Origin: Bryobacterales bacterium | GTDB taxonomy: Bacteria > Acidobacteriota > Terriglobia > Bryobacterales > Bryobacteraceae | Assembly (NCBI GenBank): GCA_947467185.1 | Contig: CANIHR010000012.1 | Coordinates: 1-38,927 of the forward strand | Direction of reading: 5' to 3' | Length of the DNA: 38,927 bases | In this document: piece after piece, positions 7,295-38,927 of the stretch | How the letters are laid out: the number at the start of each line of letters is the position of its first letter | Position numbering within the stretch: position 1 is the first letter of the stretch | Position numbers and translations under genes: made by a program | Notes under the pieces: model-generated | The model's input: only the letters and a program-made list of their open reading frames with translations | Databases searched by the model: none | Told to the model about the DNA's origin: nothing

Positions 7295-8008
7295 CTACCG
7301 GCTGGAGGGCGGCTCCTCCAGCTTGATGACCGGGAGACGGATCAGGTTCCGCTGGATGGCGAACTTGATGACGGCCGCCCGATCATGAAGGTCAAGCTTG
7401 CGCATCATATTGGTCTTATGCGCATCCACGGTTTTAACGCTCAGAAGCAGGCGAGCCGCGATCTCTTTGGGTGCCAGGCCGTCGGCCAGAAGTTTGAGGA
7501 CCTCGCGCTCCCGGTCGCTCAGCCTTTCATAGTCCGTCGCGGAACTTTTGCTGCTTTTGCCGACCTTTGAATGCCGCGGCCCCTTGACATGCTCTTTGAC
7601 TACTTTCTTGAGCGCCCGTGGGCTCAGGTACTGACCACCGTTTCTGACGACTTCAATCGCATGAATCAGATCGGACCGCGGGGCGTCCTTGAGAATGTAG
7701 CCGACAGCCCCGGCACGGAGGCAGCGGGTGATGACTTCTTCCTCCTCGTACATCGTGAGAATGACCACTTTGGCTTTCGGGTTGGCTCGCAGAATGTGCC
7801 GAGTCGCCTCCAGGCCACCCAGATCCGGCATGGCAATATCCATCAGAATCACGTCGGGATGAAGTCGATGTGCTCTGGCGACCGCATCCCGGCCGTTGGC
7901 CGCCTCACCGACGATCTCGATAGTCGGTTCATCGCGAAGGATTGCCTTGATTCCCTCGCGGAACAGGGTGTGGTCATCGCAAAGTAAGACGGTACTCGTG
8001 TCCTTCAT
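7295..8008 (-). CDS. NarL/FixJ-type response regulator
   Basis: A 237-residue protein. Residues ~5-125 form a complete receiver: acidic pair Asp11/Asp12, phospho-acceptor Asp57 (VILMDIAMPD), Thr85 and Lys107 (GYILKDAP). Residues ~161-222 form a LuxR-type helix-turn-helix (LSDREREVLKLLADGLAPKEIAARL, then SVKTVDAHKTNMMRKL). A basic Ser/Lys-rich linker joins them, and the C-terminal tail after residue 222 is longer than usual. Its start overlaps the kinase gene by 4 bases (8005-8008), so the two form a cognate pair. It is the last gene of the EPS operon, so the pair may control its own operon; this is inferred from position. It converges on the secreted-protein gene, with 30 bases between the two stops. 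Confidence 0.93.
   Translation of the reverse strand: MKDTSTVLLCDDHTLFREGIKAILRDEPTIEIVGEAANGRDAVARAHRLHPDVILMDIAMPDLGGLEATRHILRANPKAKVVILTMYEEEEVITRCLRAGAVGYILKDAPRSDLIHAIEVVRNGGQYLSPRALKKVVKEHVKGPRHSKVGKSSKSSATDYERLSDREREVLKLLADGLAPKEIAARLLLSVKTVDAHKTNMMRKLDLHDRAAVIKFAIQRNLIRLPVIKLEEPPSSR
7301..7322 (+). terminator. Possible hairpin terminator after the secreted-protein gene
   Basis: A perfect 8-bp stem (GCTGGAGG 7301-7308, CCTCCAGC 7315-7322) with a 6-base loop lies 36 bases after the stop at 7264. It lies inside the 3' end of the convergent regulator gene and lacks a T run, so its role is uncertain. A second weak hairpin (GGCTGG/CCAGCC, 7272-7285) sits just before it. Confidence 0.3.
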
Positions 8009-9168
8009 TTTGTTTCGACCTCCTGAAGGGGCAGGACAAATTCAATGGTTGTACCGTGTCGCCCGGCCGGTCGGCGTCCCGAATGCGACAAAAAGGTAAT
8101 GGTGCCACCGAGAAGTTCAATGCGGTCCTGCATGGCGCGAAGTCCGAAGCACTTGGGTGGGGTGCTTAGCGTCTTCCCGACGTTGAAGCCCCTGCCGTCG
8201 TCCTCGATTTTCATCATCACGCTGTCGCGGTTTCTTTGCAGCGTGATGGCGACTCGCTCCGCATTGGCATGAGCTGCAATATTTGCCAGAGCACCCTGCA
8301 ATACCTTGTAAAGAGCTGTTTCGTAGCGAGCCGGCAGGGCGCCGTTCAGCCGAGCCGACCGCAGGCCTACTTTCAGGCCTGTTCTGGCTGCAAACTGCTG
8401 CACGTAAAAGCGAATTGCGGGTACGAAGCCCTGTTCGTTCCAGATCGCCGGGCCCAGATCGAAAGTAAGGTGGCGGACGGTTTCGAGAGCGTGTTTAATC
8501 AGCGACACCGATTCCTTTAGCTTGCGGCGTACCTGGCTGATTTCGCCTTTCTTCAGGTCCAGCGCAATGACCTGGGTGTACAACTTCAGAACGATGAGAT
8601 CATGGCCAATCTCATCGTGAAGATCCCGCGCCAGACGGCGTCTCTCGGCTTCATAAGCATCGGCGAGTTCGACGGAAAAATCCTGCACACGTCGTTCAGC
8701 CAGGCTGATCTTCTCCTCAAGCGCAGCCCGCTCCGCCGCTTCGTGCAGGGAATAACCGGAGAGGAGAAAGAACTGGTAGAGCGAGGCCCAGCACGCGAAC
8801 GCCAGGATCCGTTGCACCCCGTTGTCTTTGCCGGAAATAAGGTTCGGAACACAACATTCCAGATAGAGCGCGATCGCAATTGTGACACATTCGGCCGGCA
8901 CACCACCGGATGCCAGTGCCTGCCCCTGGGCTTGCGACTCCGTCCGGTAGACGTGTGCCTTCCCGGACGGAAGATCGCCGACTTCTCCCACCACGTGCAG
9001 TTGTGCGAGGACGGCCGCATAAGGCCCGCAAGAGGTACATCGCTTCAGCGCCTGGACCCAGCATTTGCGAACCGAGGATGCCTGTGCCGCAAGGTGGATG
9101 ACGGCGCGTTCCAGTGATTGCGCGTTGTCCGTGACCGCTCGCTCGGCTCCCCTGTTGTCTCCCGTCAT
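8005..9168 (-). CDS. Soluble NarL-family sensor histidine kinase with Cys-rich N-terminal domain
   Basis: I start at ATG 9168, which forms an ATGA overlap with the upstream stop, rather than at an earlier in-frame codon (9267) that would overlap the glycosyltransferase by 100 bases; this gives 387 residues. Residues ~1-145 have no clear membrane span and no known sensor family, but carry seven Cys (36, 44, 47, 94, 105, 106, 126), including C-x7-C-x2-C. A helix ~146-175 leads to the HisKA_3 dimerisation domain with phospho-acceptor His184 (RRRLARDLHDEIGHDL). The C-terminus is an HATPase_c domain with the N box (NIAAHANAERV), DDGRGFN and GLRAMQDRIELLGG. It probably phosphorylates the regulator encoded directly downstream. 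The signal is unknown; a redox, metal or cluster ligand is possible. Confidence 0.88.
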   Translation of the reverse strand: MTGDNRGAERAVTDNAQSLERAVIHLAAQASSVRKCWVQALKRCTSCGPYAAVLAQLHVVGEVGDLPSGKAHVYRTESQAQGQALASGGVPAECVTIAIALYLECCVPNLISGKDNGVQRILAFACWASLYQFFLLSGYSLHEAAERAALEEKISLAERRVQDFSVELADAYEAERRRLARDLHDEIGHDLIVLKLYTQVIALDLKKGEISQVRRKLKESVSLIKHALETVRHLTFDLGPAIWNEQGFVPAIRFYVQQFAARTGLKVGLRSARLNGALPARYETALYKVLQGALANIAAHANAERVAITLQRNRDSVMMKIEDDGRGFNVGKTLSTPPKCFGLRAMQDRIELLGGTITFLSHSGRRPAGRHGTTIEFVLPLQEVETK

Positions 9169-27059: not shown

Positions 27060-28880
27060 TCAGCGCGACACGGCTACCGTAGCGGTGTTGCTGGAGACTC
27101 CCCCGGCGACAACCTGGAGCACGACGTTCCCGGGCGGGAGTCCGGCAGGGACCGACACATTAACCTGATACAAGCCCACCAGGCCAGGCGTCAGACCTGA
27201 GAAGGACACCGCGGCATTGAGGCCACCCAAGGTGACGATCGGGACGAGTTGTGTCTCCGCCAACTGGCTCGCCGGAGCGGGTGCTCCGGACCGAACCGGA
27301 AGTTTTACCGCCCCCAGGCCGGTACAGAATATCGCCAGCGATTCGCCGGCTCGCGCGGGATTCGTAACACTGACGAGGGAATAGTCGGCATGCACAATCG
27401 CACCCTGGCTCGCAGCCTGGTCGACTATGAAAATGCCCGGCGAAACAGCAGCCACCGTTATGGTGCTCACGGAACTCTTCGTCGCGCCGCGAACTACCTG
27501 AAGCGAGGCGATACCGGGGCCGAGTTCGAACGGAACCTGGGCGTTAATCTGACCGGCCGACACATAGTAGAGCGGTGCGGCGATTCCATTGAAGGTCACG
27601 CTGGTCTCGCCAATGACGGCAGGCAGCGGAATGGCGTAGGCGCTCGCTGCGGCTGTCGAGAAATCCGACCCGAAAATAGTTACAATTCCGCCCGGAGCAA
27701 TTGGAGAGTTCTTCGCGAAACTCGCGCTGCTGACGACCGCACCCTCCGGCAACCCGGGTGCCGCGAGAGGTGGGCCTGAGACCCTTCGGATACGGCTGTT
27801 CACGCGGTCCGCGATGTAGACGCTCCCGGAATTGTCCACTGTCACAGCCCAGGGGAAGTTCAACATCGCGGAAGCGGCCAGGCCGCCATCGCCCGAGAAC
27901 CCGTCGGTTCCGGTGCCGGCTACCGTAGTGATGATGCCAGCGGGATCCACTCTGCGCACGCGATTATTCCCGGCGTCGGCGATATAGAGATTGCCCGCAA
28001 AATCAATGGCAAGGTCTGACGGAATATTTAACGACGCGAGTGTGGCAAGTCCGCCGTCACCGGCGAAACGCCCCTTACCATCTCCAGCGACCGTCGAGAT
28101 AATCCCTGCCGGAGTAATTCGGCGAACACGATTGTTGTTGCCATCGGTGAAGTAGAGGTTGCCAACCTGGTCCCTGGCAAGGCCCAGGGGGAAGCTCATC
28201 GTGGCGCCTGTGGCAAGATTCCCGTCTCCGGAGAATCCTTCCAGACCATTACCTGCGATGGTCGTGATCGTGCCGTCCGGGGCGACGCGGCGAATGCGCT
28301 GATTAGAACTATCTGAGAAATAGATATTGCCGGACGGGTCCACAACTACCGATGACGGTCGGTTCAGCGTGGCATCTGTCGCCAGACCGCCATCGCCGGA
28401 AAAGCCTTGTATGCCTGTGCCCGCTACCGTGGTCACGGTTCCGGCCGGAGTCACCTTGCGGATACGCCGGTTGCCCGAGTCGGCAACATAAAGATTGCCT
28501 GCGGAATCCAGCGTCAGGCCGTTGATGTCGCTGAAGGTTGCTGCCAGGGCGGAGCCACCATCTCCGGCGGCACCCAGAACTCCGGTGCCCGCCACCGTGA
28601 AGATCACGCCGGCAGGGTTCACAGCCCGCACACGGAAGTTATCGACGTCGGCAATATACAACTGGCCCGTGGCGCCGACAGCTATCCCCCTGGGATGGTT
28701 GAGCGCCGTCACATTGGCCATTCCGCCATCGCCCGAGTACGTTGTGGCACCGTTGCCCGCGAAGGTGCTGATCGTCACCTGCGACCAGGCCACGGAAGGC
28801 GAGAGAACCACACAGATCGCCGGGAACAACAACATGGCGACGCTGTTACTGACTGAATAACCGGAGATTATTTTAGGCAT
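27060..28880 (-). CDS. Secreted NHL-repeat beta-propeller protein with TIGR03437 C-terminal domain
   Basis: 606 residues from ATG 28880 (AGGAAG nine bases upstream; the longer frame to 28943 lies in the YvcK gene). Signal peptide to about residue 33 (SPSVAWSQ). Six NHL repeats of ~56 residues follow, each with a G(N/T)G---(F/Y)(S/A)GDGG-A--A-L--P motif and NLYIAD--N-R-RRV--AGII-TVAG; six blades fit one propeller. The C-terminal ~230 residues are a TIGR03437 domain (IAPGGIVTIFGSDFS, YYVSAGQINAQVPFELG, GESLAIFCTGLGAV, SFSGLTPGLVGLYQVNVSVPAGLP). NHL propellers bind proteins, RNA or glycans. A secreted one in the middle of an EPS operon may be a matrix or envelope partner of the polymer (inference). 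Confidence 0.9.
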   Translation of the reverse strand: MPKIISGYSVSNSVAMLLFPAICVVLSPSVAWSQVTISTFAGNGATTYSGDGGMANVTALNHPRGIAVGATGQLYIADVDNFRVRAVNPAGVIFTVAGTGVLGAAGDGGSALAATFSDINGLTLDSAGNLYVADSGNRRIRKVTPAGTVTTVAGTGIQGFSGDGGLATDATLNRPSSVVVDPSGNIYFSDSSNQRIRRVAPDGTITTIAGNGLEGFSGDGNLATGATMSFPLGLARDQVGNLYFTDGNNNRVRRITPAGIISTVAGDGKGRFAGDGGLATLASLNIPSDLAIDFAGNLYIADAGNNRVRRVDPAGIITTVAGTGTDGFSGDGGLAASAMLNFPWAVTVDNSGSVYIADRVNSRIRRVSGPPLAAPGLPEGAVVSSASFAKNSPIAPGGIVTIFGSDFSTAAASAYAIPLPAVIGETSVTFNGIAAPLYYVSAGQINAQVPFELGPGIASLQVVRGATKSSVSTITVAAVSPGIFIVDQAASQGAIVHADYSLVSVTNPARAGESLAIFCTGLGAVKLPVRSGAPAPASQLAETQLVPIVTLGGLNAAVSFSGLTPGLVGLYQVNVSVPAGLPPGNVVLQVVAGGVSSNTATVAVSR

Positions 28881-29883
28881 TCGAACACACTTCCTGAAGA
28901 TTTTCTTTGTATGGTGCGGATTGGCTGCTCTTGACCCGGACAAGCTTCACCACCAGACGGCCGAGCCGGTCCGAGTGATGGCGTATATGGCCGCCGTGCT
29001 GAGTCAGCAGGTCAGCCTCAACTGGAACCGCATCCAGAGAGCGAATAACGGCGAGGTCGCACTCCACTGGCTTCGGTCCATCCGGGGACGCGGGGCTCGC
29101 GTATTTGCGCGGCGCGTCCGGGGAATTGACCACGCAATACTGCACTACGCTGCGACCGAGGCAATCGGATACCACGCGGAGATGGTCAGAGGCGGAAAAT
29201 CCATCCGTCTCGCCGGGTTGCGTCATCAGATTGCAGACGAGAATCCTGACTGCGCCGGACCGGCGAATGGCCTCGGCGATTCCCGCCACCAGCAGATTCG
29301 GAATCAAACTTGTATACAGGCTTCCAGGTGCCAGCACGATGGCGTCGGCCGAAGCAATCGCTTCCAGCACCCCAGGGGATGCAGGCGGGCTTTCCGGCTC
29401 CAGCCAGACCCGAGCGATGGAACGGCCCGCCGCAGTGATATGCGACTCGCCCCGAACTACCGTTCCGTCGTGAAATGTGGCGCACAGGGTGGAGGGCGTT
29501 TCCGTGGCGGCCAGAGCGCGCCCTCTGGTGGGCAAGAGCCGGCTGGCGATTTCAATGGCCTCCGTCAGGCTGCCCAGCTTCTGGTAGAGCGCGGCCACAA
29601 TCAGATTGCCGACGGTGTGACCATCGAGGCATCCGCCTCCGGTGAAGCGGTGCTGAAATATGTCGGCAAGAGTGCAATTGCTCCGCGACAGAGCCACCAT
29701 ACAATTGCGCAGGTCACCCACCGCAGGCATGGCGAAGGTCTCGCTGAGGCGACCGCTGGACCCTCCGTTGTCAGAGACACTGACAATCGCCGACAGATCG
29801 ACACCGGCGCCCTTCCGGAGTCCGGCGAGGAGTACGGGCAATCCGGTTCCGCCGCCAATGCCGACGATCCGAACTGTTTTCAC
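28873..29883 (-). CDS. YvcK/CofD-like protein (UDP-sugar-binding gluconeogenesis factor family)
   Basis: I choose GTG 29883: it forms a GTGA overlap with the sugar transferase stop and places the Rossmann motif at the N-terminus (VKTVRIVGIGGGTGLP), as in the family. 336 residues, close to the family size. Other signatures: VSVSDNGGSSGRLSE, VGDLRNCMVAL, LDGHTVGNLIVAAL, LAPGSLYTSLIPNLLVAGI and CNLMTQPGETDGFSASDHL. The last ~60 residues are basic. The family is related to CofD; Bacillus YvcK binds UDP-sugars and is needed for normal cell-wall synthesis on gluconeogenic carbon. Here it lies directly behind the initiating sugar transferase, suggesting that it senses nucleotide-sugar supply for EPS (inference). 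Confidence 0.9.
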   Translation of the reverse strand: MKTVRIVGIGGGTGLPVLLAGLRKGAGVDLSAIVSVSDNGGSSGRLSETFAMPAVGDLRNCMVALSRSNCTLADIFQHRFTGGGCLDGHTVGNLIVAALYQKLGSLTEAIEIASRLLPTRGRALAATETPSTLCATFHDGTVVRGESHITAAGRSIARVWLEPESPPASPGVLEAIASADAIVLAPGSLYTSLIPNLLVAGIAEAIRRSGAVRILVCNLMTQPGETDGFSASDHLRVVSDCLGRSVVQYCVVNSPDAPRKYASPASPDGPKPVECDLAVIRSLDAVPVEADLLTQHGGHIRHHSDRLGRLVVKLVRVKSSQSAPYKENLQEVCSNA

Positions 29884-31202
29884 GACTTGCCCCGGCCGAA
29901 TACAACCAGTTCCAGAGTCCGCAGAAGGATGCCGATATCGAAGAGACACGAGCCGTGCTTGGCGTAGTAGAGATCGTACTGGAGTTTTTCGATGGCGTCT
30001 TCCACCGAAGCTCCGTACTGATACTTAACCTGAGCCAACCCGGTGACACCCGGTTTGACACAGTGACGGAGATTGTAGAAAGGTATTTCCCGTGTGAGCC
30101 GATCCACAAAAAAGGGCCGTTCCGGGCGGGGTCCCACCAGGCTCATTTCGCCGCGGAGGACATTGAACGCCTGGGGTATTTCGTCAATATGGAGTTTCCG
30201 CAGCAGTCGACCGAGGCGCGTCACCCGATCATCGATCTCCTTGGCCCAGGCCGGTCCCAGGTCACCCTCGGCATCCTGCCGCATAGAGCGTAACTTATAG
30301 ATGACGAAGGTCTTTCCATCCAGGCCAACCCGCGTCTGCCGGAACAGGACGGGACCAGCGGATTCCAGCTTGATCGCGAGGGCGACCAGCAACAGGAAAG
30401 GGGCGGCCAGGACAAGCAGGACAGTGGCGAACAGAATGTCGAAAGAGCGCTTAAAGAATGTCCGGATTCTGGACATCTTGAAGCCGCCGGTGTACACAAA
30501 CCACTCTGAACTCAGGCCGTCAATCCAGATCTTTTCAAAGAACTGCTCATAGAAGTCAACCGCGTCGCTGACGACCAACCCGCCGAGGCGAGGGCCTACC
30601 AGAGTAGCTGCCAGCCGGGATCGGTTCGGTACACTCTGTTCCGCCACGATGATGCGAGAGATTCCCTCGCTCTGGAGATATTCGGGGAGGTCTGAAAAAC
30701 CCGTGAGGCCGCAATCCGCCAGGCTTCCCGGAAAGCGCACGAGTCGACGGGTGCGTTGTTGTTCCGCGAAACCTGCACTGGTTGACAACGCCTGATGCAG
30801 CTTCTCGGCTAATCTACCGTTACCAACAATCAGCATGCTCTCGGCCAGGCGCCTGTGGGTAGTCAGATGTCGCAGGATGGGCCTCAGAACCGTCGGCAGC
30901 AAGCTGGTCGCAAAAAAACCGACCAGTACCGCTACGGTTCGGGTGCCGAGTGCAGGGAATATGAGGAGCAGCAGGAGGGCCGCACCGCTTCCCCACAGCA
31001 GGGCTTCCCTGAGGTCACTCCAGAACCGCGTCTTGCTGGATCCGACGATCGAAACATCCATCGCCTTCAAATAGAGGGAGAGGGTGCAGCAGGCGATGAT
31101 GATGGGCGCTTCAAACGTCGCACCCTTCCATGCAGTGTGCAGCAGCGCGAGGCACAGCAAAGCCAGTTCGGCGCCGAGAACAACCTGCAGCGGGCGTGCC
31201 AT
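29880..31202 (-). CDS. Undecaprenyl-phosphate sugar phosphotransferase (polyprenyl glycosylphosphotransferase)
   Basis: The start is uncertain. ATG 31202 (MARPLQVVLGAELALL) leaves a 43-base gap to the kinase gene; ATG 31295 (GGGAG nine bases upstream) or GTG 31217 would be alternatives. 440 residues from 31202. Four N-terminal helices (~1-130), a cytoplasmic CoA-binding-like domain (SMLIVGNGRLAEKLHQAL), a fifth helix (FKRSFDILFATVLLVLAAPF) and the catalytic bacterial-sugar-transferase domain: PVLFRQTRVGLDGKTFVIYKLRSM, RKLHIDEIPQAFNVLRGEMSLVGPRPE with the Asp-Glu pair, and CVKPGVTGLAQV. It attaches the first sugar-1-phosphate of the repeat unit to undecaprenyl phosphate. Which sugar it uses cannot be deduced. 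Confidence 0.88.
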   Translation of the reverse strand: MARPLQVVLGAELALLCLALLHTAWKGATFEAPIIIACCTLSLYLKAMDVSIVGSSKTRFWSDLREALLWGSGAALLLLLIFPALGTRTVAVLVGFFATSLLPTVLRPILRHLTTHRRLAESMLIVGNGRLAEKLHQALSTSAGFAEQQRTRRLVRFPGSLADCGLTGFSDLPEYLQSEGISRIIVAEQSVPNRSRLAATLVGPRLGGLVVSDAVDFYEQFFEKIWIDGLSSEWFVYTGGFKMSRIRTFFKRSFDILFATVLLVLAAPFLLLVALAIKLESAGPVLFRQTRVGLDGKTFVIYKLRSMRQDAEGDLGPAWAKEIDDRVTRLGRLLRKLHIDEIPQAFNVLRGEMSLVGPRPERPFFVDRLTREIPFYNLRHCVKPGVTGLAQVKYQYGASVEDAIEKLQYDLYYAKHGSCLFDIGILLRTLELVVFGRGKS

Positions 31203-31245
31203 AAGAAATGGCCGCACCCGGAGCGAGAGGTTCCCGGTTGCTGGG

Positions 31246-33444
31246 CTAGCTTCTGCCCAGGTAGTGTCGTTGATAGTACCGATAGGCATAGGCATAAGGC
31301 GTAGCTCCCAATTCAACATCGTTCAGTACGAGACCAATCACCTTGGGTGCTCCAAGGCTTTCAAGGGCACGAAGTAACAGTTCGGGCCGCGTTTGGCGTG
31401 CTCGTACCACAAACACAACTCCATCGCACAGGTCAGCCAGAATCTGGCTGTCTGCAACAGGAACAACCGGTGGGCTGTCCACGACAATCACGTCGTACCG
31501 GCTCTTCAGGCGAGCGAGTATCTCGCGGGTCCTGCCGGAGGCAAGCAGGCCGATCGGATTCGTTCGGTCAATGCCGCCAGGGAGGACATCAAGGGCCCCG
31601 ATTCTGGAGATATAACCGTCAATTTCCCCGCCCCGCGGAGCCAGCAGGTCGCCGAAACCTTTCTCCTGCTTCATCCCCAGGCGCTCGTGTACCTGCGGCA
31701 GTCGAAGGTCGCCGTCCACCAAAAGAACCCGGCCCTCAGATATGGCGGCCAGGGCAAGGCTTAGGTTCAGGGCTGTCAGCGACTTGCCTTCTGCTCCCGA
31801 GGAACTGCTGACAAGAAGAGTCTTGCCGCCTGTCTGTGCCATCCACTGGTGCACTTTGAGCGCCAGAATGCTGTACTGCTGCGCAGCGACCGAGCCGGGG
31901 TCGGTGAGGGGCGCCAGGCGCTGTTCCTGAAAGTGCCTGCTTTGTTCAGCCGTTAAATTGCCAGGGAGCAGAAAGGCCTGCGATTCGTTACCGGGCTGCT
32001 TGTTCTTCCCCATCCCTGCGCGCTCCGGAGCGGTCTGAATCGAAGGAACGCTGGACAGGACCGGAAGACCCGTGAAGGCTTCCAGTTCCTCAGCCGTCTC
32101 AAAGGACGGATTCGCGCGCTCGGCGATGAATACCCCCAACAAGCCCAGCGCAAGGCTGCCAAGGAAGCCGGCGACGATGATTCGAACCCGGTGGGGGCCC
32201 GAAGGCGACGCTGGTGTTTGTGCAGGTTCGATGATCCTGTAAGAAAAATCGTTGTCCGTCTTTTCCGCACGGTGGCTCAGTTTGGCTTCCTGTTGCCGGG
32301 CGAGGAGGGCCTCATAACGAGTCCGGGTCAAAGAGGCATCGCGGGCACGCTTGGAGACCGCGGTTTCGAACGCGGGAGCAGAATTCACTCTTCGCTCAAA
32401 GGTCTGCACGTCCGCCGTGAGGGCGTCGCGTTCCCGACGGTAGCTCTCCAGGCGGGGACCGATGGATTTCAGTTCAGCCTGCAACCCCAGATAGCGGAGC
32501 TGTACGGGAGTCGGCTGGCTCCGGACGACCGGTGCCGGCGTTTTTGCGGCTTCGAGCTCCTGAATTTGCGTCGCCGTCTGGCGAATTTCGGGATGCTCCG
32601 AGGTGTAGCGGGTCTTAAGGTCGCGAAGCTTCACCCTTAATTGATCGAGTGTGATCTCCGCACCGGTCCTGGCGGGTGCCTCCGTATCGAGAACGCCCTG
32701 GCCTGCCAGCGCATTCACCTCTTCAGTAAGGGTGGACCGGCGCGCCTCTGCTTCCGTGATCTGGTCGGTCTTGCCGTGGATCTGCTGCTGCAGATTTTCC
32801 AGCTGTTTCAGGTTGGCCGCCAGGCGTTCGGGCAGTTCGCCGGCGACGCCTTGCTTGTACAGTTTCAGGTTGTCTTCTTCATCGCGGAGTTGCGTCTGCA
32901 GGACTCCGACCTCGGAATCGAGAAAGTTGTCCTCCTGCTCCACGCGCCTGCCTCGAAGGTCCGATTTGCGATCCAGAAACATTCCCGCCAGGCGGTTTGC
33001 AACGTTTCTCACCTGCACGGGCTCTGCACCCTCAAAGCCGACGTAGAAACTCTCCGGGCCCTCGACCTGGATCTCAACTCTTGCCCGCATGGCTTCGATA
33101 TCGACGGCAGGGGCGCTGGCGGGTGGCAGATTGTACAGCCGGAATTCCCGAATAACGCGTTCCAGTACGGGCGTACTAAGAATCGTTTCCCGAATGGCGC
33201 GCAACTGATCCTGTGCGTTCAGCGCCACCAGGGCGTCAGGTCTGACCAGCGACGACCGGCCAGCGATAGCCGGATCAGAGCCGACCAGGGCGCGAGCACG
33301 AAAGCGAGGGGGCATGCGAAGCGCATAGAAGGCTATGGCCGGCGTGAGCAGGAGAACAGGGAGTAACAGAAACAGTTTGCGGCGGCGCAGAGCCCGCAGG
33401 ACAGATGCGGGAGAAAAGCTCTTTGTTCCTTCATTCTCTTTCAT
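31246..33444 (-). CDS. Wzc-type polysaccharide co-polymerase with tyrosine autokinase domain
   Basis: 732 residues; ATG 33444 shares one base with the barrel gene stop. TM1 (~23-42), a periplasmic Wzz/GNVR domain with long coiled coil (~170-390), TM2 (~420-441), then a cytoplasmic BY-kinase: Walker A SSSSGAEGKS (Lys554), Walker A' VLLVDGDLR (~573-581), Walker B VIVVDSPP (~652-659). The C-terminus carries a tyrosine cluster with Tyr717, 719, 721, 723, 724 and 728, the expected autophosphorylation tail. The full-length, one-chain architecture is the Gram-negative Wzc type. It controls EPS chain length and export with the export protein and barrel encoded just upstream. The linker between TM2 and the kinase (~442-540) is long. 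Confidence 0.93.
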   Translation of the reverse strand: MKENEGTKSFSPASVLRALRRRKLFLLLPVLLLTPAIAFYALRMPPRFRARALVGSDPAIAGRSSLVRPDALVALNAQDQLRAIRETILSTPVLERVIREFRLYNLPPASAPAVDIEAMRARVEIQVEGPESFYVGFEGAEPVQVRNVANRLAGMFLDRKSDLRGRRVEQEDNFLDSEVGVLQTQLRDEEDNLKLYKQGVAGELPERLAANLKQLENLQQQIHGKTDQITEAEARRSTLTEEVNALAGQGVLDTEAPARTGAEITLDQLRVKLRDLKTRYTSEHPEIRQTATQIQELEAAKTPAPVVRSQPTPVQLRYLGLQAELKSIGPRLESYRRERDALTADVQTFERRVNSAPAFETAVSKRARDASLTRTRYEALLARQQEAKLSHRAEKTDNDFSYRIIEPAQTPASPSGPHRVRIIVAGFLGSLALGLLGVFIAERANPSFETAEELEAFTGLPVLSSVPSIQTAPERAGMGKNKQPGNESQAFLLPGNLTAEQSRHFQEQRLAPLTDPGSVAAQQYSILALKVHQWMAQTGGKTLLVSSSSGAEGKSLTALNLSLALAAISEGRVLLVDGDLRLPQVHERLGMKQEKGFGDLLAPRGGEIDGYISRIGALDVLPGGIDRTNPIGLLASGRTREILARLKSRYDVIVVDSPPVVPVADSQILADLCDGVVFVVRARQTRPELLLRALESLGAPKVIGLVLNDVELGATPYAYAYRYYQRHYLGRS

Positions 33445-34745
33445 TACAATTTCTCCCCGGGCAATGGATCGCCTGTATCAACGGGACCCTGCTGTTCGAT
33501 CGCTCGGCGATCACGTGGCTTGTCCGGTGCCGGGGGCCGCGAAAGTGAAAGTTCTACCCCGGCGAAATAGCGGCTTCTGGACAGCGATTCCGCAACGAAC
33601 ACGTTTCCGCTCTGGCCGTAATGCTCAAGGCGAACGAACCACGTGACTCGGTCGTTCAGCCGGTAACTGAGATGTAACTGGCTGATGATGCCGCTAATCG
33701 ACTGAAAGTGGGTATCCTTTCCGTTGAGCACTCGCTGGAGCCCACCTTCCATGCCAACCCGGGGAGAAAGTCGACCCCAGGCGCGAACCGAGGCGACCTG
33801 ATATACGGAGCCGGGTGTTGAGCCGTCGGCAAATCCCGAGGTGCCCGGTGCCGCGCTGCTGAGCTGAGGCAGGCCGCCGAAGAAGGAAAGGTACCGCTGA
33901 TACCCCCCAGCAACCCACATGCCGCCCAGGCGTTTTTCCACCACGGCTGTGCCGATGAAGGAGGTTTGGGCACCGTAGACAACACCGGCTCCCAACTGAA
34001 GGACCAGGCCGGGATTCACCTCGATGCCGTACCCGGCGTTTGCCAGATTCACATCCGAAGCGCCCCCGGCAACCAGTCGCAGGGGGTGCGAGTGCAGGAA
34101 CGAATAGCTGACCGACAGTTTCTGGCGCGATGTCACCTTGCGGTCCACAGTCAGCGTGGCCGCCGTTGTGACTCCGTCGAGACGGCCCGCCAGCGCTCCG
34201 GGGAGATCAGTATTCGTGAACGTGTTATCGAGCCGGAGGTCAATTTTGGTCCGTGCGTTGACCCGATATCCGACTCCCAGGTAGGCGGAGTTTTGCAGGA
34301 AGCGGCCGCGTGGCAGCAGCAACAGACTATTCACGAGTTGCCGGCTGGCATCCGCCGTGGACAGAAACAGGTTTCCCGTATCGACGCTCCAGCGCGCGTT
34401 GATCCGGTATTTGTAACGCATGGCCGCCAGATGATTCCAGGCGTTCAGTTCCGAATTGTGGCGAAACAACTCGATCTCCGGTCGGTAATCGACAAAGAAC
34501 TCTTGCCGGTGTGTGGTGTGCATCCAGGCAAAGGTTGGTCCGGTCAGTAAGCCGACCGTGTCATTGAGTTTGCCGGTTCTGGCCACAAAGCCCTGGTCAT
34601 AGCCATAGCTCAGACTCAGGGGAGATGTCAGGTAAAAACCCTCCGGTCGTTCCTGTGCCTGCGCGGTGGCCAGAAACAGACTAATGACTACCAGTCCGGG
34701 CGCGGCGGACTCACGCAGGTTCCACCAGGGGCGACTAGGCTGCAT
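33444..34745 (-). CDS. Outer-membrane beta-barrel protein of the EPS system
   Basis: I start at ATG 34745 (MQPSRPWWNLRES...), followed by a signal peptide that ends near ATAQAQE; the upstream frame to 34832 lies in the receiver gene. 433 residues. The mature part is a series of amphipathic strands with alternating hydrophobic residues and Tyr/Trp ends (for example QEFFVDYRPEIELF, YKYRINARWSVDTGNLFLS, SVSYSFLHSH, GAGVVYGAQTSFIGTAVVEKRL, HLSYRLNDRVTWFVRLEHYG, FAGVELSLSRP), typical of a barrel of 14-18 strands. It ends in a polar ~30-residue tail. EPS loci of PEP-CTERM type often contain such a barrel; it may be the outer-membrane pore that works with the small export protein. Family assignment is by pattern only. 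Confidence 0.72.
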   Translation of the reverse strand: MQPSRPWWNLRESAAPGLVVISLFLATAQAQERPEGFYLTSPLSLSYGYDQGFVARTGKLNDTVGLLTGPTFAWMHTTHRQEFFVDYRPEIELFRHNSELNAWNHLAAMRYKYRINARWSVDTGNLFLSTADASRQLVNSLLLLPRGRFLQNSAYLGVGYRVNARTKIDLRLDNTFTNTDLPGALAGRLDGVTTAATLTVDRKVTSRQKLSVSYSFLHSHPLRLVAGGASDVNLANAGYGIEVNPGLVLQLGAGVVYGAQTSFIGTAVVEKRLGGMWVAGGYQRYLSFFGGLPQLSSAAPGTSGFADGSTPGSVYQVASVRAWGRLSPRVGMEGGLQRVLNGKDTHFQSISGIISQLHLSYRLNDRVTWFVRLEHYGQSGNVFVAESLSRSRYFAGVELSLSRPPAPDKPRDRRAIEQQGPVDTGDPLPGEKL

Positions 34746-35136
34746 GAGACGCTCCGTAGGCAGAGCTGATCGCGCGTCGCAACTGTGCTGGTTGGTCTGC
34801 ACTGCGAATGTAACCGGCAGCTCCGGCTGCAAGGCAGGCTTCTATCAACCCATCGTCATCGCTGAGCGACAGGACCAGAACTGCGACATGGGGATGGAGG
34901 GCCTTCATGCATCGCGTGGCCTCTGAACCACACGAGTCGACCGTGTTCGGATCCAGCAGCACAACATCGGGTCGGAGCTGTTGCAGCAGTGCGAGAGCCT
35001 GGCCCGCTGTGGCCGCTTCACCTACAATGCGGATCACCGTCTCCTTCAGAAACAGCGCCTTGATACCCTCGCGAAACAGGTTATGCCGGTTACAAAGGAG
35101 CACCCGGATAGTCTTGCGTCTCGGCATGATGGTCAT
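34735..35136 (-). CDS. Stand-alone receiver protein with degenerate active site
   Basis: 133 residues in an ATGA overlap with the export gene and an 11-base overlap with the barrel gene. The fold and wording resemble the receiver of the operon's NarL regulator (RVLLCNRHNLFREGIKALF versus TVLLCDDHTLFREGIKAIL). The phospho-acceptor Asp62 is kept (VVLLDPNT) and Ser90 fills the Thr position, but the Mg-binding acidic pair is Asn16-Arg17 and the beta-5 Lys is lost (GYIRSADQ). There is no DNA-binding output domain. It may bind the operon's kinase or another partner without normal phosphorylation; this is inference. ATG 35127 is a possible shorter start. Confidence 0.82.
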   Translation of the reverse strand: MTIMPRRKTIRVLLCNRHNLFREGIKALFLKETVIRIVGEAATAGQALALLQQLRPDVVLLDPNTVDSCGSEATRCMKALHPHVAVLVLSLSDDDGLIEACLAAGAAGYIRSADQPAQLRRAISSAYGASHAA

Positions 35137-35783
35137 CTGCCTTCCACGTAAACGGTGTCCTGAGGCTGCAGGTAGAAGGGCAAGGCACCCGAATCTCCGA
35201 CGGTTTGTTTTACGTCGATCCGGAAGCGTTGCGGTCCCGCTGCGGTGGTACGGATCACAATGACCCGGTTCGCTCTGGCCAAATCCGTGAAGCCGCCCGC
35301 CATCGCAATGGCGTCCAGAACCGTGACGCGATTCTTGATTCGGTAGACATCCGGTTTGCGGACTTCGCCGAGGACCGAGACTTTGAGGCTATTGATTTGC
35401 TTGACCATCACACTGACGATCGGCCGGGTAATGTAGAGCTTGAGTCGCTCCGTGATGTCGGCCTGAAGTTCCAGAGCCGTCTTGCCACTGGCATCCAGTT
35501 CATTAGCGAGTGGAAGAGAAATTTTGCCGTCCGGCCGGACCACAACGCTGGTGGAGAGGTCAGGCTCTTTCCAGACAAACACGTCGATCACATCTTCCGG
35601 TCCCATCCGGTAATCCGATGCGGCCTTAACGATACCGGCTGTGGACGGGACATCGGCCGCGGCCAGAAGACAGACGGTAGCGGCAGAGAGGACGACAATC
35701 CCCATGGCGATTCGTCGGCAGCTCGTGCGCTTCACCTGGTCTCTGGCAGAGCCCGTCTGGTCCAAATTAATCGTGCGGTACAT
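35133..35783 (-). CDS. Polysaccharide export protein (Wza/Poly_export family, short form)
   Basis: I place the start at ATG 35783 (216 residues). ATG 35879 and ATG 35705 are alternatives; none has a clear ribosome site, and the frame upstream to 36146 looks non-coding. A hydrophobic segment (~27-43, MGIVVLSAATVCLLAAA) acts as signal or anchor; no standard lipobox. Residues ~58-130 are the Poly_export domain (YRMGPEDVIDVFVWKEPDLS, VRPDGKISLPLANELDASGKT, ITRPIVSVMVKQI) and ~133-182 an SLBB domain (KVSVLGEVRKPDVYRI, TVLDAIAMAGGFTDLA). The large C-terminal outer-membrane part of Wza is absent, which fits a short PEP-CTERM-style exporter that pairs with the separate barrel protein. It is the first gene of the EPS operon. 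Confidence 0.88.
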   Translation of the reverse strand: MYRTINLDQTGSARDQVKRTSCRRIAMGIVVLSAATVCLLAAADVPSTAGIVKAASDYRMGPEDVIDVFVWKEPDLSTSVVVRPDGKISLPLANELDASGKTALELQADITERLKLYITRPIVSVMVKQINSLKVSVLGEVRKPDVYRIKNRVTVLDAIAMAGGFTDLARANRVIVIRTTAAGPQRFRIDVKQTVGDSGALPFYLQPQDTVYVEGR

Positions 35784-35958
35784 GACTCTACTGGAAGCAC
35801 TGCGGGGTCCATTGCGGTCTTCAGATATTGGGCCACGCGCCTGCGGTCGTTGACGAGAGAGAATCCGCTTTGTTTGCATCGGATCCGGACGTAGTGGCAC
35901 GAGTCGCTGCGAGTTGCGAGTTGGGTGCGATGAGGCAAGACGCCAAAGTGGCTGACCA

Positions 35959-35987
35959 CATATAGCCACCCGACTGCCGACGGCCAA
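35959..35987 (-). promoter_or_regulatory. Candidate EPS operon promoter
   Basis: On the minus strand TTGGCC (complement of 35982-35987; 4 of 6) and TATATG (complement of 35959-35964; 4 of 6) are 17 bases apart. Transcription would start near 35951, about 168 bases before the ATG at 35783. The match is weak and found by eye. Confidence 0.25.
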
Positions 35988-36300
35988 CCAGCTAACCGCG
36001 ACCTCTCTTCCTGATCCAAACACCCTTCGGAGAGGGGGCAGACGGTGAACGAAGCGTTCGGGATGGGCTTTCCAATCCGCACCCGGAACCCGTGTCTGAC
36101 GGCCTCGGCTGGCGGGGCGGCGGATCGCAGAGAAGACCAGTGCCATGCCAGAACCGAAGCATTATCCGCTGCGTGTGAGACGCCCCGGAACCCGACTCCT
36201 GGGGTCCGCGGTCGAAACAGCGCAGCAACCGGGCGACCCTTACCTCGAATGCGTTAAAGACAGAGCGTACCTCGACGGAAACAGCCGAAGACGCTGATCT

Positions 36301-36328
36301 CGCGCCGGGAGATGGACCTCCCGGCGCG
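36301..36328 (-). terminator. Strong GC-rich hairpin after the large secreted-protein gene
   Basis: A perfect 11-bp stem (CGCGCCGGGAG 36301-36311, CTCCCGGCGCG 36318-36328) with a 6-base loop lies 54 bases after the stop of the gene at 36383. There is no T run on either strand, so it may be a T-less terminator or an mRNA 3' stabiliser that separates this gene from the EPS operon. Confidence 0.5.
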
Positions 36329-36382
36329 AAACGCTGCTCGCCGCTCTGAAATCGAAGTGTGGCAGCTCTCTTTCAGGCGGCC

Positions 36383-38927
36383 TCAGCGGACAGCAATCGT
36401 AACCGTATTGGATACGACCCCGCCGATAGTGAGAATCAGAGGCACAGCCCCCCCCGAATTCATGCCCGTCGGCACCTGGACATTCACTTGGTAGAGGCCC
36501 ACAGTTCCGGGCGTCAACCCGGAGAAACTCACTGGCGCTGCAATGCCCCCAATGGTCACCGTGGGTGTTGTGGTGGTCATCGACAACAGGGTGGATGAAG
36601 CAGCAACTCCCGTGGCTGGCTGATTGGAAACTGAGCCCAGGCCGGTGCAGTAGACAGAGATGTATTCTCCACCCGCCGCAGGCCTCATACCAGGCCCGCT
36701 CGCAGGGGCCGCAAGCACCTGTGTCCCCGCGATCACGACTATACCCTGAGACGAACCGCTCTGGTTGAGCGTGAAGATGCCGGGAGCGAAAGATGCAATA
36801 CTCACCAGTTGCGGCGGGGAAACCGCTCCGCCGACGGTTGCGGTAACTGTAGCCTGGGTCTGCCCGGCGACCTCCCAGGGAATCTGCAGATTGACCTGGC
36901 CTGGCGTTGCGGCGAATAGTGGGGCATCTCGCCCGCCAATCTGAAAACGGCTTGAGGCAAGCGTAGTGGGCAAAGGAAGGCTGCTGGCAAAAGCCTGTCC
37001 AACGGCAAGGTTGCGTCCAAAGACAGAGGCGATGCTGCCGGCGGCCACAGTAGGCAGATAAGTGGCTGAGTTTACGGTGCCTGCTGTATTAGTTGCCGGC
37101 GCAGGGAGTGCCGGTGGATTGATCGTGGTCAAGTCGTTAGCTGAGTCATTGGCGGTATTCGACTCGCCGCCACCCCCAACTACAGCCGTGTTCATCACCG
37201 CAAGACTGAAGATGTTTCCAGGAATGTTGATCCTTTTGATCATGAATTCCTGGTTGCTGGCAACGTGGCTTTGGATTACGTTGCCCGTCGCGAGGTCAAA
37301 ACGGGTTACCGACGACTGGCACCAATCGCTGGCCCAGAACGACGTACCATCGGAATCCACGGCTACGCCCAGCCGGCAACTGCTGCCCGGCGCATTGTAT
37401 GTGCGAACCAACTTGCCAGACGCGTCCAGACGCGCAATCACGCTGAAGTTGGAGACCAGCATCCCACCGTCGGGAAGGAACGCCAGCGCGAACGCACCGT
37501 TGACCGGATCGGGGAGCGGTGAACTGTTGAAGTTTGGCATCTGTGTGTTGGTACAGACGTTGAATCGTTTTACGTTCGGACCTTCCGACGTGTAGTACAT
37601 CGTGCACTGGTCGTTGTCGAGGAGAATGTCATAGGTTCCACGATTCTCGACAGCGACATCAAACCGGGCGAGCGGCTTACCTGCCGAATCAAATTTCAGG
37701 ATCTGGCCGCCGCAATCGGCCTGGCCGACATATGCATTGCCTGCTTTGTCAAACACGATCGCGGAGGGATTGCAGTTGAATCCGCTTCCAAATGATCCGA
37801 TGCTGCTGCCGTTCTTCGCGAACACCGCGACGTCGTTGCCGGATTTATCGCCGGCCCCGTACCAATGCGTTACATACAGGTTTCCGGAGCGATCGAAGGC
37901 CATACCCTTTGCCTGACCATCTGTGACGCCTGGAAGCATTGCCACCAGCGTCCAGTCTCGGCGCCGCCACTGAACGGTTCCGTCGGCCATGGAGACCAGA
38001 ATATCGCCCATTTGGAAGAGGGGCGGGCCTGACGCCAGACTGAACGCCAGTCCGCTATTGGCTACACTCACCGTCACGGTAATGGCTGGGTAGCTGGCAC
38101 CTGCATCCAGCCCATCGCTGCGTGTGCAGGCAAGCGGGGTCAGCGTGCAAGTCCAGCCGGTCCCGCCAATGGCTGTGGCGGTCAATCCGCCGGGAAGAGT
38201 ATCGGTGACCGTCACCAGACCGGTAGTCGGCCCCGAACCGGGGTTACTGGCGGTGAGGGTATAGGTGTCCCCGGTATCTCCCTGAAGGAAGTTCCCCAGG
38301 TGGCTCTTGCTGATGGCAAGGTCGGGTATGGGGCTGACTGCCAGGGTGTTGACGAAGGTGCAGATCGTCGTTGCGCCGCTGGTTACCGTAACCGCGGCAG
38401 GAGTCCCGCTGGTGCAGGCTGCGCTGGTCTGAGTCCAGCCGGCGAGCGCAGCTTCGCTTACGCTATAGCTGCCGCCTGCGGCCAGACCGCTGAACGTCTG
38501 TGTTGCCGTGTTTCCGCTGGTTGCGAGAGACGTGAGGCCAAAGTTGCTGGTGAACGTGAAGACGCCGTTGCCACCGACCGTGTTCTTGATGACCTGGATC
38601 GAACCCGTGGCCGGAATGATGGTATTGACGAAGGTGCAGATGGTCGTCGCGCCGCTGGTTACTGTAACTGCAGCAGGAGTCCCGCTGGTACAGGCTGCGC
38701 TGGTCTGGGTCCAGCCGGCGAGCGCGGCTTCGCTTACGTTGTAGCTGCCGCCCGCGGTCAGACCGCTGAAGGTCTGGGTGGCGGTGTTCCCGCTGGTGGC
38801 GAGAGACGTGAGGCCAAAGTTGCTGGTGAACGTGAAGACGCCGTTGCCACCGACCGTGTTCTTGATGACCTGGATCGAACCCGTGGCCGGAATGATGGTA
38901 TTGACGAAGGTGCAGATGGTCGTCGCG
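36383..38927 (-). CDS. Large secreted repeat protein, C-terminal part (prealbumin-like repeats, DUF11, propeller-like region, TIGR03437)
   Basis: The frame stays open to the window edge, so the N-terminus is missing; ~847 residues are visible. A GTG at 38215 is an internal Val. In order: at least two full 92-residue repeats of a prealbumin-like (SpaA-type) fold (GSIQVIKNTVGGNGVFTF, SLATSGNTATQTFSGL, ICTFVNT); a DUF11 domain (LAISKSHLGNFLQGDTGDTY, SGPTTGLVTVTDTLPGGL); a ~400-residue region with NHL/SMP-30-like propeller strands (GMAFDRSGNLYVTHWYG, SAIVFDKAGNAYVGQADCGG); and a ~220-residue TIGR03437 domain (AGSIASVFGRNLAVGQ, GGEYISVYCTGLGSV, SFSGLTPGTVGLYQVNVQVP). Such architectures are cell-surface adhesins or matrix proteins. 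It precedes the EPS operon on the same strand but is separated by 599 bases and a hairpin. Confidence 0.88.
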   Translation of the reverse strand, partial: ATTICTFVNTIIPATGSIQVIKNTVGGNGVFTFTSNFGLTSLATSGNTATQTFSGLTAGGSYNVSEAALAGWTQTSAACTSGTPAAVTVTSGATTICTFVNTIIPATGSIQVIKNTVGGNGVFTFTSNFGLTSLATSGNTATQTFSGLAAGGSYSVSEAALAGWTQTSAACTSGTPAAVTVTSGATTICTFVNTLAVSPIPDLAISKSHLGNFLQGDTGDTYTLTASNPGSGPTTGLVTVTDTLPGGLTATAIGGTGWTCTLTPLACTRSDGLDAGASYPAITVTVSVANSGLAFSLASGPPLFQMGDILVSMADGTVQWRRRDWTLVAMLPGVTDGQAKGMAFDRSGNLYVTHWYGAGDKSGNDVAVFAKNGSSIGSFGSGFNCNPSAIVFDKAGNAYVGQADCGGQILKFDSAGKPLARFDVAVENRGTYDILLDNDQCTMYYTSEGPNVKRFNVCTNTQMPNFNSSPLPDPVNGAFALAFLPDGGMLVSNFSVIARLDASGKLVRTYNAPGSSCRLGVAVDSDGTSFWASDWCQSSVTRFDLATGNVIQSHVASNQEFMIKRINIPGNIFSLAVMNTAVVGGGGESNTANDSANDLTTINPPALPAPATNTAGTVNSATYLPTVAAGSIASVFGRNLAVGQAFASSLPLPTTLASSRFQIGGRDAPLFAATPGQVNLQIPWEVAGQTQATVTATVGGAVSPPQLVSIASFAPGIFTLNQSGSSQGIVVIAGTQVLAAPASGPGMRPAAGGEYISVYCTGLGSVSNQPATGVAASSTLLSMTTTTPTVTIGGIAAPVSFSGLTPGTVGLYQVNVQVPTGMNSGGAVPLILTIGGVVSNTVTIAVR
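38349..38927. repeat. 276-bp direct tandem repeats coding for prealbumin-like domains
   Basis: Units begin at 38349, 38625 and 38901 (the third is cut by the window edge). The period is exactly 276 bases (92 codons), which keeps the frame. The block 38523-38651 is identical to 38799-38927 (129 bases), while the earlier part of each unit carries scattered changes. The array probably continues beyond the window. Confidence 0.92.

Follow-up and report, generated by a model that had tools for sequence, protein, structure and literature searches.

A predicted single-domain pseudo-receiver with old EPS-regulator ancestry in an EPS locus of Bryobacterales

In a 38,927-nucleotide stretch of a Bryobacterales genome (assembly GCA_947467185.1, contig CANIHR010000012.1; hereafter the window), we identified within an exopolysaccharide (EPS) locus a gene whose product is, with high confidence, a single-domain pseudo-receiver with old ancestry among EPS regulators. 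Rather than a relic, it is probably a functional protein that binds a partner, and we infer that it serves as a phosphorylation-independent partner made together with the export machinery.

Table 1. Features of the EPS locus and of the pseudo-receiver gene in the window
Feature	Coordinates	Strand	Evidence and remarks
Polysaccharide export protein (OPX-type), first gene	35133..36146	(-)	Poly_export E 3e-24, SLBB
Single-domain pseudo-receiver gene, 133 aa	34735..35136	(-)	Response_reg E 5e-14; same junction in five other genomes
Asn16-Arg17 codons, in place of Mg-binding acidic pair	35086..35091	(-)	Non-acidic in 6/6 orthologues
Retained Asp62 codon	34951..34953	(-)	Asp in 6/6 orthologues
Ser112 codon, beta-5 Lys position	34801..34803	(-)	Lys in 1/6 orthologues
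Outer-membrane beta-barrel-like protein, third gene	33444..34745	(-)	Synteny marker; putative beta-barrel
Wzz/tyrosine autokinase	31246..33444	(-)	AAA_31, Wzz, GNVR; TIGR03007, TIGR03018 below cut-off
Initiating phosphoglycosyl transferase, possible EpsZ-like target	29880..31319	(-)	Bac_transf E 4e-63; TIGR03025 above cut-off
HisKA_3 histidine kinase, penultimate gene	8005..9168	(-)	HisKA_3 E 7e-13, HATPase_c; MctS model below cut-off
NarL-type response regulator, last gene	7295..8008	(-)	Response_reg + GerE; canonical receiver, nearest own-genome kin of pseudo-receiver

The genes of the locus lie on the minus strand (Table 1). They begin with those for the export protein, the receiver, the outer-membrane protein, the Wzz/autokinase, the phosphoglycosyl transferase, a CofD-like protein, and an NHL-repeat protein; continue with glycosyltransferases, GNAT-type and DegT proteins, a deacetylase-like protein, Wzy, and Wzx; and end with two amidotransferases, a heparinase-like protein, the kinase, and the NarL-type regulator. 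This layout suggests a single operon spanning 7295-36146. As a preliminary description of this DNA had it, the pseudo-receiver gene is second in order, and it overlaps both of its neighbors: its ATG shares 4 nt (ATGA) with the stop of the export gene, and its 3' end lies ~11 nt into the third gene, if the likely ATG of the latter is at 34745. A scan of 33300-36500 found no sigma-70-like promoter, although a sigma-70 scan is not informative for a Bryobacterales host. For the chain-length determinant, tyrosine autokinase, transferase, and amidotransferase that mark an XrtA/PEP-CTERM-type EPS locus, the XrtA models (TIGR03007, TIGR03018, TIGR03013, and TIGR03108) were best or near-best, yet all fell below their curated cut-offs.

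The open reading frame of the pseudo-receiver starts with ATG, and PF00072 matches residues 12-123 of the product with a score of 52.8 against a cut-off of 30.2; a Pfam search of all 133 residues found no second domain, DNA-binding domains included. Alignment to the terminal NarL regulator pairs Asn16-Arg17 with Asp11-Asp12, Asp62 with Asp57, Ser112 with Lys107, and Ser90 with Thr85, which bears out the earlier reading that Asn16-Arg17 replace the acidic pair, that Asp62 is kept, and that the beta-5 Lys is lost. Bacterial pseudo-receivers (PsRs) likewise have a PF00072-recognized receiver fold from which key catalytic residues are missing (PMC12632262); here both acids and the Lys are gone, and Thr has become Ser. 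Given the loss of the Mg2+ ligands, ordinary phosphorylation of the protein is unlikely by established chemistry (PMC12632262). The first position lacks an acid in approximately 20% of PsRs, and at the second the acid is commonly replaced by Asn (PMC12632262). The present protein and its orthologues stand apart among PsRs as lone domains without an output that have lost both acids while keeping the Asp and that usually bear a basic residue at the second position.

Orthologues were located only by using the neighboring outer-membrane gene as the search query. A protein search of 40 relatives returned nothing above 43% identity apart from the gene itself, and the receivers it contributed to our alignment are canonical; a phylum-wide profile draw yielded no additional pseudo-receiver locus. 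The best two matches of a contig scan, at 47% and from Candidatus Solibacter MAGs, are full-length canonical NarL regulators and not orthologues. Syntenic EPS loci were found in 16 other genomes, 15 of which are readable at the export/outer-membrane junction (n = 16 with the window; G058, with a contig break there, was left out of the count). A receiver occupies this junction in 6 of the 16 readable loci, belonging to two families: the window's genome (G000), G859, and G524 represent one, and G487, G475, and G462 another. The remaining 10 (G602, G769, G806, G832, G847, G057, G458, G509, G489, and G248) have none, with the proviso that at the G248 junction, where tblastn found no receiver, the gap could fit a small gene and 17 bases are N. 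The preliminary description had named beforehand a want of conservation in related EPS loci as grounds for rejecting its proposal; the gene withstood this test by recurring in five other genomes.

The altered active site is a consistent property of the group. Positions corresponding to the acidic pair read NR, NR, MR, SK, SK, and TN across the six pseudo-receivers, the second being basic (Arg or Lys) in five, and the residue after the Thr position is a bulky Leu, Ile, or Val. The acidic pair is canonical in all 64 other NarL-type receivers that we fetched, the terminal regulator's 16 orthologues among them, so its loss is no chance trait of these proteins. The EPS regulators never vary at 37 positions; every pseudo-receiver retains seven of these, the Asp among them, and none retains a further six, to which both acidic ones belong. 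Each of the six genomes encodes an orthologous NarL regulator, and in five we read the kinase in the terminal part of the EPS locus.

Within its own genome, the pseudo-receiver is most similar to the terminal NarL regulator (43%, E 1e-23; next match 32%, E 1e-14). The N-terminal likeness remarked on earlier is genuine, with 29/53 residues (55%) identical compared with 14-19/53 (26-36%) for the genome's five other NarL-type regulators; the C-terminal half is unremarkable (21/66 compared with 15-23/66). Plain identity is a poor guide to kinship, as the protein shares 42% with its cognate NarL and 45% with unrelated NarLs, and we therefore settled the matter by phylogeny. In a tree of 70 receivers, the six pseudo-receivers form one clade (99/95; 86/83 without the active-site columns), and they group with the EPS NarL orthologues, plus one G006 homologue, to the exclusion of all other NarLs (100/95; 97/95 without these columns). 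Their branches are long, at 0.5-2.4 changes per site versus 0.03-0.6 for the EPS regulators. By these trees the pseudo-receiver is an old paralogue derived from the EPS NarL receiver lineage and common to two families, with a single origin likely, given long branches and few sequences. The earlier suggestion of a duplicated receiver thus stands as to descent from this lineage, but not as to a recent copy of the genome's own terminal regulator, since sisterhood with it was rejected (AU p 0.0004). Pseudo-receiver loci fall into two groups in the locus tree, which would reflect either one gain with losses or transfer.

An AF2 model of the protein (pLDDT 88, pTM 0.85) has five strands and five helices in a (beta-alpha)5 fold. 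Its nearest structures by Foldseek and VIA-align are VraR, LiaR, DesR, NarL-type receivers, and activated CheY (best Z ~20, rmsd 1.4); because no ligand was included in the prediction, its similarity to activated structures is not evidence of state. Helix alpha-1, a kinase-docking and NarL-family dimer surface, is somewhat retained (54% identity to the cognate NarL against a background of 46%), and the switch loops have been rewritten (beta-3/alpha-3, 22% versus 49%; beta-5/alpha-5, 4% versus 52%). A kept alpha-1 together with two erased switch loops fits a partner-binding domain without a switch.

Fast branches, and absence from 10 of 16 readable loci, which indicates that the gene can be lost, are compatible with a decaying relic of a duplicated regulator that has no present function. 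We consider this very improbable: dN/dS in the closest pairs is 0.19 (G000/G859) and 0.28 (G487/G475), values that are rough with dS >1, the reading frame is open in all six, the predicted fold is intact, and the Asp and core positions are kept across two families. By these sequence measures, the gene is maintained under purifying selection. The invariant Asp could instead mark a slow response regulator, phosphorylated at Asp62 at a low rate by a kinase or a small phosphodonor and acting as a weak phosphate sink or slow switch; a review of PsRs notes that phosphorylation is not necessarily lost altogether when DD, T, or K is changed (PMC12632262). With both acids, the Thr, and mostly the Lys changed, no metal site left, the second acidic position usually basic, and a bulky residue after the Thr position, we regard such a role as improbable.

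A more serious alternative is suggested by EpsW of Myxococcus xanthus, likewise a single-domain receiver encoded in an EPS locus (PMC12802240, PMC4671073), which binds the transferase EpsZ directly and thereby activates it (PMC12802240). The window offers the same setting, an EPS locus that encodes both a lone receiver and a large phosphoglycosyl transferase, and the pseudo-receiver might bind this transferase, the export protein, or the autokinase and set its activity without phosphorylation. Its location amid export and assembly genes is consistent with such an effector, as is the arrangement within the window's family, where the transferase gene lies inside the operon in pseudo-receiver loci G000 and G859; in G769, G806, G832, and G847, all without the pseudo-receiver, it belongs to a divergent unit that lies upstream of the gene for the export protein. 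However, EpsW is phosphorylated by DifE, needs this phosphorylation, and is canonical at its site, whereas the pseudo-receiver lacks the acidic pair. Moreover, G458, G248, G509, and G489 have the transferase in the operon and no pseudo-receiver, G524 has the pseudo-receiver and no transferase in the stretch read, and differences in transferase length and inserts do not track pseudo-receiver presence. The model of the transferase (pLDDT 58) is too poor for judging its dimerizing beta-hairpin, which the partner of an EpsW-type regulator would be expected to lack. We hold an effector role of this kind to be less likely than not, yet a close rival of the partner that we favor below; lacking the acidic pair of a phosphorylatable receiver, the protein is not an EpsW-type single-domain regulator by class, but it may have a similar target.

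Our tentative choice of partner, to which we give somewhat less than an even chance, is the operon's terminal two-component pair. It is favored by the descent of the pseudo-receiver from the operon's regulator and by the fact that all pseudo-receiver genomes also encode this regulator. The sequences show a lone domain that arose long ago from the EPS NarL receiver lineage, lost the residues for Mg2+-dependent phosphotransfer, and has been maintained between the export and outer-membrane-protein genes. On the reading that we propose, the gene would be co-transcribed with its neighbors, and because it starts in the stop of the first gene and ends in the start of the third, its dose would follow translation of the export genes. 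The protein would then bind either the NarL receiver, forming a heterodimer, or the kinase at its docking helices, and thereby damp or bias the response of the operon during production of the export machinery. Arg or Lys at the second acidic position may pair with Asp62 and thereby hold the protein in a single state, as reported for CheY, which D13K activates, but an equivalent EpsW D13K allele did not restore EPS (PMC4671073).

Several known systems provide precedents for the two-component pair as partner. The PsR domains of ShkA and CikA inhibit kinases (PMC12632262). CmrT of the Clostridioides difficile CmrRST operon is, like the pseudo-receiver, a degenerate receiver co-encoded with a kinase and a canonical regulator, and CmrT-CmrR heterodimers were recovered in pull-downs; CmrT differs in that it binds DNA, belongs to the OmpR type, and has Glu in place of the Asp, and the authors of that study deemed an origin by gene duplication unlikely (PMC12548384). 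In WhiI-BldM and RcsA-RcsB, a response regulator is similarly modified by an auxiliary partner, WhiI having a degenerate pocket and RcsB-RcsA controlling a capsule (PMC4125116); both partners bind DNA there, whereas the small protein here has no DNA-binding domain.

Other observations weigh against the kinase or regulator as partner. Loss of the beta-5/alpha-5 loop removes part of the usual kinase contact, a gene amid export genes fits a machinery partner equally well, and the reading draws on only six orthologues with long branches. In G462, the kinase that closes the EPS locus has no NarL gene after it (L201:1941-3807); a separate contig, away from the kinase, carries the NarL orthologue (59%). 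The pair does not require the pseudo-receiver, as G602 and G806 have kinase and regulator without it; the regulatory loop that the preliminary description saw bracketing the operon is accordingly not obligatory, the gene being present in 6/16 loci. The fullest version of the proposal, a new family of anti-regulators in which a receiver split from an EPS regulator is locked by pairing of a basic residue with the Asp and exerts export-coupled feedback on the two-component system, strikes us as speculative and rather unlikely.

Pseudo-receivers, CmrT-like operon partners, and EPS single-domain regulators have all been described before; the form seen here looks new, and we found in the open-access literature no stand-alone descendant of an EPS operon's own regulator lacking the acidic pair. 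How bacterial pseudo-receivers are switched, and which partners they bind, is still an open question (PMC12632262). The gene described here offers a natural minimal case, comprising only a receiver, with a traceable ancestor, a putative partner in the same operon, and loci with and without the gene, and this opens the partner, the direction of the effect, and the part played by the conserved Asp to direct tests. Recent work has shown that single-domain regulators matter in EPS production (PMC12802240), and a pseudo-receiver would add a post-translational or feedback layer to its control.

The survey of loci also yielded observations on the EPS locus itself. The outer-membrane marker occurs in 0/18 same-genus genomes examined, and the locus (7295-36146) recurs outside the family, once even in a different class of the same phylum (G248); this patchiness suggests transfer or repeated loss. 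Contig 676 of G847 (L193:5000-7400) carries a collapsed second copy, in which a shortened outer-membrane gene and a Wzz/autokinase piece abut the genes for the kinase and NarL; a deletion in nature or an error of assembly would account for it. A CofD/YvcK-like gene, whose role in EPS is not obvious, lies within the operon at 28873-29949 (-) (PF01933, E 5e-91). It was not found in the stretches read of G769, G806, G847, and G832, and it is also present in the EPS loci of G524, G487, G475, G462, G458, G248, G058, and G509.
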